64,000 nucleotides of DNA from Hyphomicrobiales bacterium. Its GTDB lineage: Bacteria; Pseudomonadota; Alphaproteobacteria; Rhizobiales; Beijerinckiaceae. The notes beneath the pieces are model-generated. The model ran no database searches. It saw nothing but the letters and a program-made list of their open reading frames with translations, and had not been told where the DNA came from. A program made the translations under genes and the position numbers. Location of the stretch: assembly GCA_027489535.1 (NCBI GenBank), contig JAIXZO010000019.1, forward strand, positions 1 through 64,000. The letters run 5' to 3'. Shown here piece after piece: positions 54,005 through 60,102 of the stretch (the first letter of the stretch is position 1; every line of letters begins with the position of its first letter).

Positions 54005-54030
54005 TCCGACGCCTCTCGCGAACCTGAACG

Positions 54031-54052
54031 AAACCGCCCTCCGGGGCGGTTT
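54031..54052 (+). terminator. Rho-independent terminator of rpmG
   Basis: AAACCGCCC, loop TCCG and GGGCGGTTT form a perfect 9-bp stem. The downstream arm continues into TTTTCGTTT. It lies 27 bases after the rpmG stop. Confidence 0.92.
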
Positions 54053-54068
54053 TTTCGTTTCGGGGTGC

Positions 54069-54110
54069 GTGGTTCGAGACGGTGCTGCGCGCCTCCTCAC
54101 CATGAGGTTT
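54069..54110. repeat. Family A repeat, single half (A5)
   Basis: GTGGTTCGAGACGG to CTCCTCACCATGAGG matches the left halves of A1 to A3. No right half follows. Confidence 0.8.
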
Positions 54111-54145
54111 GGGTGGTGGAGTTTGCTCGGGGCGTCACCCCGGTG

Positions 54146-54236
54146 TGTCATCCCGGGCGGCGTGAGCCGACCCGGGACCCAGCTTTTCGGGCATTGTGGG
54201 ACAAGGCTGGGTCCCGGCTCTTCGGCCGGGATGACA
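54146..54236. repeat. Family B intergenic repeat (B5)
   Basis: The terminal inverted repeats TGTCATCCCGG and CCGGGATGACA enclose GACCCGGGACCCAGC and GGCTGGGTCCCGGCTC. The order of the parts matches B4. Confidence 0.85.
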
Positions 54237-54508
54237 GCTGTTGCGTGGTTTTGAAGGAAGGACCGCCGTGGTGGCCGGCCGGGCGATACGGAGGAGGCCA
54301 CTCCGAAGTCGCCCGCGCCGGCCTGACCCCACGGACCCGGGAGATGCGGCGGACCCGGGCATGTCCCGCAGGGTTGTCACGAAAGCGCTTCGAAAAGCGC
54401 GCGACGGTTCGCAGGATAGCGCGAAGCGAATCGAGTTGAAAGAAAAACGAATCGCTTCGCTGCGCCGCCCGGCGGCGCATAGCGCCGACGCGCGACGCCT
54501 CGACCGGA

Positions 54509-58905: not shown

Positions 58906-60102
58906 ATGACGATGGAAGCGGCGACGAGTGCATTGCGGGCGGAGGTCGAAACCGGCCTTTCGACGATTCCGGCTGCGGAATGGGACGCCTGCGCGGGAGC
59001 GCCCGAGGGCGGCACCCCGCCGAACCCGTTCGTCTCCCATGCCTTTCTCTCCGCGCTGGAAGATTCGGGATGCGTCGGCGGACGCAGCGGCTGGACGCCC
59101 GCACATCTGCTGGTGCGCGACGCGGAGGGACGCCTGACGGGCGCGACGCCGAGCTACCTCAAATCCCACTCGCAGGGCGAGTACGTGTTCGATCACGGCT
59201 GGGCCGAAGCCTATATGCAGGCGGGGGGCGCGTATTACCCGAAGATACAGGTCTCGGTGCCGTTCACGCCCGCGACCGGGCCGCGCCTGCTGGTACGCGA
59301 CGGCCCTCACGCCGAACAGACGCGCGGGCTGCTGGCGCAGGGTTTGAAGACGTTTTGCGGACAGGTGAAGGCCTCGTCGGTTCACCTCACCTTTCTGCCC
59401 GAGGACGAGTGGCGCTATCTCGGCGAACGCGGATATCTGCAGCGCACGGACCATCAGTTCCACTGGTTCAACGACGGCTATCGCAGCTATGACGACTTTC
59501 TCGCGGCGCTCGCCTCGCGCAAGCGCAAGACGCTGAAGCGCGAGCGGCGCGAAGCGGTGCAGAACGACATCGAGATCGTAAGGCTGACGGGTTCGTCAAT
59601 AACCGAAGACGATTGGGACGCGTTCTTCACGTTTTACGTCGACACGGGATCGCGCAAATGGGGGCGGCCCTATTTGACGCGCGCGTTCTTCTCCATGGTC
59701 GGCGAGCGCATGGCCGACCGCATTTTGCTGGTGATCGCCAAGCGTGGCGGACGCCCCATCGCCGGCGCGATCAACTTCATCGGCGACGATGCGCTGTACG
59801 GGCGGAATTGGGGCTGCATCGAGGACCACCCGTTCCTGCATTTCGAGGTCTGCTACCATCAGGCCATCGACTTCGCGATCGAACGCGGCTTGGCCCGCGT
59901 GGAGGCCGGCGCGCAAGGCGAGCACAAGCTGGCGCGCGGCTATCGCCCGGTGGAGACGCGTTCGGCCCACTGGATCGCCGATCCGGGGCTGCGCCGTGCG
60001 GTGGCGGAATATCTCGAGCGTGAACGGCGCTATGTGGACGCCGTTCACGGAGAGCTGGAAGACGCCACGCCGTTCCGCAAAGGGCCGGTCGAGGAGGAGT
60101 GA
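58906..60102 (+). CDS. FemAB-like GNAT-fold protein (DUF482 / PF04339-type)
   Basis: This 398-residue protein belongs to a group with acyl-CoA N-acyltransferase fold, sometimes named peptidogalycan biosynthesis protein. Visible traits include EYVFDHGWAEAYMQAGGAYY and SRKRKTLKRERREAVQNDI, and the C-terminal AGAQGEHKLARGYRPVETRS. The acceptor is unknown; a role in cell-wall or aminoacyl transfer is only a family analogy. The ATG at 58906 is chosen. It follows gdpD by 40 bases. Confidence 0.88.
   Translation: MTMEAATSALRAEVETGLSTIPAAEWDACAGAPEGGTPPNPFVSHAFLSALEDSGCVGGRSGWTPAHLLVRDAEGRLTGATPSYLKSHSQGEYVFDHGWAEAYMQAGGAYYPKIQVSVPFTPATGPRLLVRDGPHAEQTRGLLAQGLKTFCGQVKASSVHLTFLPEDEWRYLGERGYLQRTDHQFHWFNDGYRSYDDFLAALASRKRKTLKRERREAVQNDIEIVRLTGSSITEDDWDAFFTFYVDTGSRKWGRPYLTRAFFSMVGERMADRILLVIAKRGGRPIAGAINFIGDDALYGRNWGCIEDHPFLHFEVCYHQAIDFAIERGLARVEAGAQGEHKLARGYRPVETRSAHWIADPGLRRAVAEYLERERRYVDAVHGELEDATPFRKGPVEEE

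Follow-up and report, generated by a model that had tools for sequence, protein, structure and literature searches.

Results

The gap between rpmG and divK

We analysed a stretch of DNA of 64,000 nucleotides (hereafter the window), in which rpmG and divK are convergent and separated by a gap at 54005-54508 (Table 1). The divK product is a stand-alone receiver orthologous to DivK, with 73-82% identity to DivK of the 80 best-matching named loci and 96-99% identity to DivK of congeners. The original prediction had read the gap, starting from divK, as repeats, a unique stretch of about 270 nt, and rpmG. These parts are real, including the repeats, which recur elsewhere in the window, but their order is different: unique sequence follows divK, and the repeats lie between it and rpmG. 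Furthermore, the unique stretch, to which no content had been assigned, contains an overlooked small RNA, EcpR1, which starts 132 nt past the divK stop codon on the same strand.

Table 1. Coordinates of the genes and other features at the divK-rpmG locus of the window
Feature	Position	Strand	Evidence and remarks
rpmG, ribosomal protein L33, 54 aa	53840..54004	+	NF001860 77.9 bits; TIGR01023 63 bits
Terminator-like hairpin and T run of rpmG	54030..54053	+	
Dispersed intergenic palindromic repeats, EcpR1-rpmG interval	54068..54237		10 further matches in the window; inverted repeats I4 and I16
EcpR1 (Atu_C6, RF02500) small RNA	54268..54376	-	66.1 bits, gathering score 60, model 1-113
Spacer at the expected position of pleD	54377..54508	-	Inverted repeat I22; two GANTC sites, 54428-54432 and 54449-54453
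divK, single-receiver response regulator, 125 aa	54509..54886	-	PF00072 87.4 bits

Besides the copies in the gap, the palindromic repeats occur near 540 and at 27.8-28.1, 40.0-40.2, 42.0, 47.7-47.8, and 60.2-60.3 kb. In contig 52 of the congener G001 (L203), the blocks matching 43.7-48.9, 48.9-53.8, 54.3-54.4, and 54.5-60.1 kb of the window are rearranged, and some of the repeat copies are close to the breakpoints.

EcpR1 in the gap

With the Rfam covariance model, the score of EcpR1 is close to the family cut-off, and the full length of the model is matched. On the divK strand, the predicted fold has a minimum free energy (MFE) of -67.4 kcal/mol (z = -3.64), with none of 200 shuffled sequences equally stable, and the predicted MFE structure contains both expected stem-loops, SL1 and SL2. 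In an alignment of 29 sequences, one from the window and 28 from relatives, two-sided changes occur at 19 of the 27 consensus pairs and 93.1% of the cells are paired, as compared to 84.6% after shuffling (none of 500 reached 93.1%) and no more than 58.2% after sliding; the consensus structure was taken from the same alignment, and kinship among the sequences inflates these counts. The loop 1 run GGTCCGCCGCATCTCC is intact in the window, and among the 29 sequences the majority of its columns vary little or not at all. Within the genus, 99-104 of 109 EcpR1 positions are identical, whereas identity to G001 is about 75-83% in the nearby coding blocks. In the window, EcpR1 is flanked by divK and rpmG without pleD; in G001 it is relocated, 5.5 kb from divK and beside the homologue of the gene that ends at 60102 in the window. 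RT-15 and other weak Rfam matches around the gap were far under their gathering scores and were discarded.

EcpR1 (SmelC291/SmrC10/Sra33, RF02500) is known from Sinorhizobium meliloti, where, according to the portions of the study available (PMC4414408), its gene is flanked by the divK-pleD operon and rpmG. In that study, stress and ppGpp induce the RNA, which is transcribed from a promoter of its own, represses gcrA and dnaA via loop 1, and is unaffected by overproduced PleD or DivK. Because of this position in S. meliloti, the window can be described as an S. meliloti-type locus minus pleD. Both loci share the divK strand, the rpmG neighbour, the two stem-loops, and the conserved GC-rich loop 1, whereas the window has no pleD before the RNA, its EcpR1 scores near the cut-off, and a gcrA/dnaA pairing site was not recovered in its genus. 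Compared with the divK-pleD operon of Caulobacter and rhizobia, the sequence and place of divK are conserved here and pleD is deleted. EcpR1 of Methylosinus sporium 5, which also lies outside the rhizobia proper, has rpmG as a neighbour and predicted SL1 and SL2 as well. In the available text of that report (PMC12403871), its predicted targets fall into no consistent functional categories, with no clear cell-cycle targets among them, and neither divK nor pleD occurs in the main text.

Absence of pleD from the locus and the genome

pleD is missing from both the locus and the assembled genome. As originally predicted, no pleD is encoded between rpmG and divK, and when the gap was compared with 20 PleD proteins by blastx, a single match of 9 residues (E = 1.1) and no remnant was found. 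The genome-wide search that had been proposed, for a homologue with two receivers and a GGDEF domain, found none: in the assembled genome, which is 95.7% complete, the best match to NF007135 reached about 151 bits (E = 3.7e-44) against a cut-off of 474, and the matching part was the GGDEF region. Genome-wide, there are four GGDEF matches: three of the proteins combine GGDEF with EAL, and the fourth (L002) has a GGDEF domain and a weak match to dCache. None of the four has a Pfam receiver domain. Whole-genome searches of two congeners did not find full-length PleD either. The prediction had allowed pleD to be either lost or moved. Relocation is rejected by the PleD and GGDEF searches, and loss is upheld: full-length PleD was found neither in this genome, nor in the two congeners, nor in the 13 named genomes with a pleD-less divK locus described below.

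PleD and EcpR1 in the genus, family, and order

Among 41 related genomes, the window's genome included, PleD exceeded the curated cut-off in 34, and in none of the three of the window's genus. The seven without PleD are these three (G000, G001, and G002), G006, G007 (78% complete), G027 (1.4 Mb), and G033 (84% complete), and five of the seven have EcpR1. Forty of the 41 have DivK at E <= 3.5e-35; in G033 the best match has E = 5.2e-9. In G002, G006, and G027, EcpR1 and divK share a strand and are about 100-126 nt apart. The comparison of the junction in neighbouring species, which had also been proposed, thus shows the same divK-EcpR1 junction in the congener G002, and G001 is pleD-less as well.

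The pattern extends beyond the genus. In a family sample of 397 genomes, PleD (E <= 1e-90) is found in 268 (34 of 43 genera) and missing in 129, and EcpR1 is found in 296 (33 of 43 genera) under strict filters that may miss weak matches. Both are present in 201 genomes, PleD only in 67, EcpR1 only in 95 (15 of them less than 90% complete), and neither in 34. In an order sample of 297 genomes at least 90% complete, PleD is found in 250 (101 of 118 genera), with no match at E <= 1e-90 in 47. The absence of pleD, presented in the original prediction as a feature of this locus, is therefore common in the order (47/297) and in the family (129/397), and its loss next to a retained EcpR1 is recurrent and apparently tolerated.

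Two further arrangements were observed. In the reduced genome of G027 (L206), from another family of the order, divK and EcpR1 are adjacent and pleD is lacking. In G018 (C6), EcpR1 lies more than 1 Mb from pleD, and it is also far from pleD in other members of groups g17 and g58, so that EcpR1 is not bound to a position beside divK-pleD.

Named divK loci and the Microvirga remnant

We examined 80 named divK loci, selected only as the best matches to DivK of the window. pleD adjoins divK in 67 of them, and locus tags place the two side by side in Caulobacter too, in agreement with the predicted frequent neighbourhood of DivK and PleD. The 13 loci without pleD belong to Ancylobacter, Xanthobacter, Azorhizobium, Microvirga (four), Pseudolabrys, Kaistia (two), Roseibium (two), and one MAG, and PleD was not found over the cut-off elsewhere in any of these 13 genomes. 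A 'Microvirga' MAG (L045) and an Afipia MAG (L072) with frame-broken pleD were scored as PleD present. EcpR1 is found in 11 of the 13 pleD-less loci (L044 and L107 have none, and the match in L092 is weak), as compared to 33 of the 67 with PleD, a difference that may simply reflect relatedness. In ten of the 11, EcpR1 lies 111-244 nt after divK, and in the remaining one (L057) it follows a pleD remnant.

This remnant, from Microvirga aerophila (L057:6138-7271), is an open frame between divK and EcpR1 whose best NCBIfam match is PleD. It covers positions 1-283 of the 457 of NF007135, with two degenerate receiver stretches and no GGDEF domain. By eye, and against what we take to be the receiver consensus, receiver 1 lacks the usual acidic pair and has a Glu where the phospho-acceptor Asp is expected. 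As judged from its sequence, the frame reads as a decaying pleD. In the three other Microvirga loci, divK and EcpR1 are only 111-177 nt apart.

A DivK tree gave at least eight label changes, but its well-supported branches force only one, and it was set aside as too poorly resolved for counting losses. Sister genera offer an informal argument: Methylobacterium and Methylorubrum have pleD whereas Microvirga lacks it, and Stappia has it whereas Roseibium lacks it (the families of Microvirga, Roseibium, Kaistia, and Xanthobacter were looked up, and those of Methylobacterium and Stappia are presumed). Judged from the named genera, several independent losses of pleD are likely, short of proof.

Discussion

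The gap holds a member of a known small RNA family, in an architecture that recurs as a variant of a known locus. We consider it highly probable (roughly 0.85) that an ancestral Hyphomicrobiales divK-pleD-ecpR1-rpmG locus lost pleD by deletion, leaving divK followed by an intact EcpR1. In this scenario, the c-di-GMP output of PleD would have become dispensable and pleD would have decayed stepwise, the GGDEF domain first and the receivers later. DivK may have kept working through the DivL-CckA-ChpT-CtrA branch, of which we searched for CckA, and EcpR1 may have been kept as a separately transcribed, stress-time regulator of the cell cycle rather than as an accessory of pleD. An independent regulator fits the data because EcpR1 survives both the loss of pleD and its own relocation (5.5 kb in G001, more than 1 Mb in G018). 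PleD and EcpR1 are each also absent where the other is present (67 genomes with PleD only and 95 with EcpR1 only, of 397). In the best reading, PleD forms a dispensable arm for c-di-GMP, and EcpR1 is a module of its own. A broader version, in which PleD is an expendable arm of the alphaproteobacterial cell-cycle circuit across Hyphomicrobiales and was lost repeatedly and stepwise, cyclase domain first, while the stress RNA EcpR1 was kept as an independent checkpoint on that circuit and retargeted off gcrA and dnaA in some lineages, is put forward tentatively, at somewhat less than even odds.

In the textbook circuit, PleD is the diguanylate cyclase linking DivJ/PleC with c-di-GMP and CtrA. Its loss could have left the DivK-PleD pair rewired, as the original prediction suggested, with another diguanylate cyclase replacing PleD under DivJ/PleC-type kinases. 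The stand-alone cyclase L002 and the three GGDEF-EAL proteins would be candidates, and a kinase of the PdhS/DivJ family (L229) remains, matching the PdhS (564.7 bits) and DivJ (211.5 bits) models under both cut-offs. However, none of the four GGDEF proteins has a receiver domain in Pfam, and thus there is no visible phosphorelay route to c-di-GMP synthesis. In Caulobacter, PleD makes c-di-GMP in parallel to DivK, both arms driving CckA to the phosphatase state, and Hyphomonas neptunium showed no obvious change when pleD was deleted (PMC7200025, available text). With CckA (1154.7 bits, cut-off 1000), GcrA, DnaA, and the PdhS/DivJ-like kinase retained in the window's genome and this deletion near-silent, we find rewiring unsupported and regard it as unlikely.

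Alternatively, genomes of the window's type may never have had pleD at this place, the divK-pleD pair having formed later in other lineages. The 129 pleD-less genomes of the 397 in the family would agree with this. However, pleD directly follows divK in 67 of the 80 named loci, the two are neighbours in Caulobacter (CCNA_02547 and CCNA_02546; PMC7200025, available text), and a decayed remnant occupies the same place in M. aerophila, so that we give this history very little credence. An assembly or binning artefact, with pleD present in the organism and collapsed out at the repeats, is equally improbable despite the repeats within the gap and the rearranged blocks near it in G001, since the divK-EcpR1 side is free of dispersed repeats, G002 has the same junction, G001 is pleD-less, EcpR1 directly follows divK in G006 and G027, and the isolate genomes of Microvirga sp. 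VF16 (L099) and Xanthobacter oligotrophicus (L043), of which one carries 'complete' in its title, have the same arrangement; the assembly error named in the original prediction as a possible refutation is thus unlikely.

Whole groups that keep DivK and EcpR1 without PleD provide natural knockouts, available among cultured bacteria in Microvirga, Xanthobacter, Ancylobacter, Azorhizobium, and Roseibium; in the one genome looked at for it, that of the window, CckA is kept as well. These genera make it possible to ask where in the circuit c-di-GMP is required, and whether gcrA and dnaA are still regulated by EcpR1 in them. The literature searched, which leaves out most subscription papers, contained no report of pleD loss beside EcpR1 in the text available, and PMC4414408 is the only paper in it found to treat EcpR1, PleD, and DivK together.

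The targets of EcpR1 may differ from those in S. meliloti. In a crude search with approximate start codons, pairing of EcpR1 with gcrA and dnaA (-200 to +100) of the window's genus scored no better by loop complementarity than with random 300-mers, and a duplex model allowing large loops likewise gave no signal on these leaders. Only gcrA of G017 stood out, one of 16 regions tested for matches to the EcpR1 loop. By this sequence comparison, a conserved EcpR1-gcrA/dnaA target circuit is not supported in this genus, and the role of EcpR1 there is putative.

The spacer at 54377-54508 probably holds the EcpR1 promoter; a scan of the region scored no sigma-70-like promoter. GANTC density upstream of EcpR1 is 6.2/kb as compared to a locus mean of 1.7/kb (52 loci), and a map of 73 loci confines the enrichment to some clades, namely the window's genus, the Bosea group, and a few others. 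Lacking a matched set of other promoters, this enrichment is only a lead, as is the idea that a loop would close if EcpR1 were under GcrA/CcrM control. The window as a whole shows a strong depletion of GANTC (CcrM-type) sites, with 92 found and 338 expected. The two in the spacer (54428-54453) fall within the arms of an inverted repeat and lie 56-77 nt upstream of EcpR1. The congeners have one such site, at -76 and -79, the Bosea group has a pair near -82/-62, and many other loci have none.
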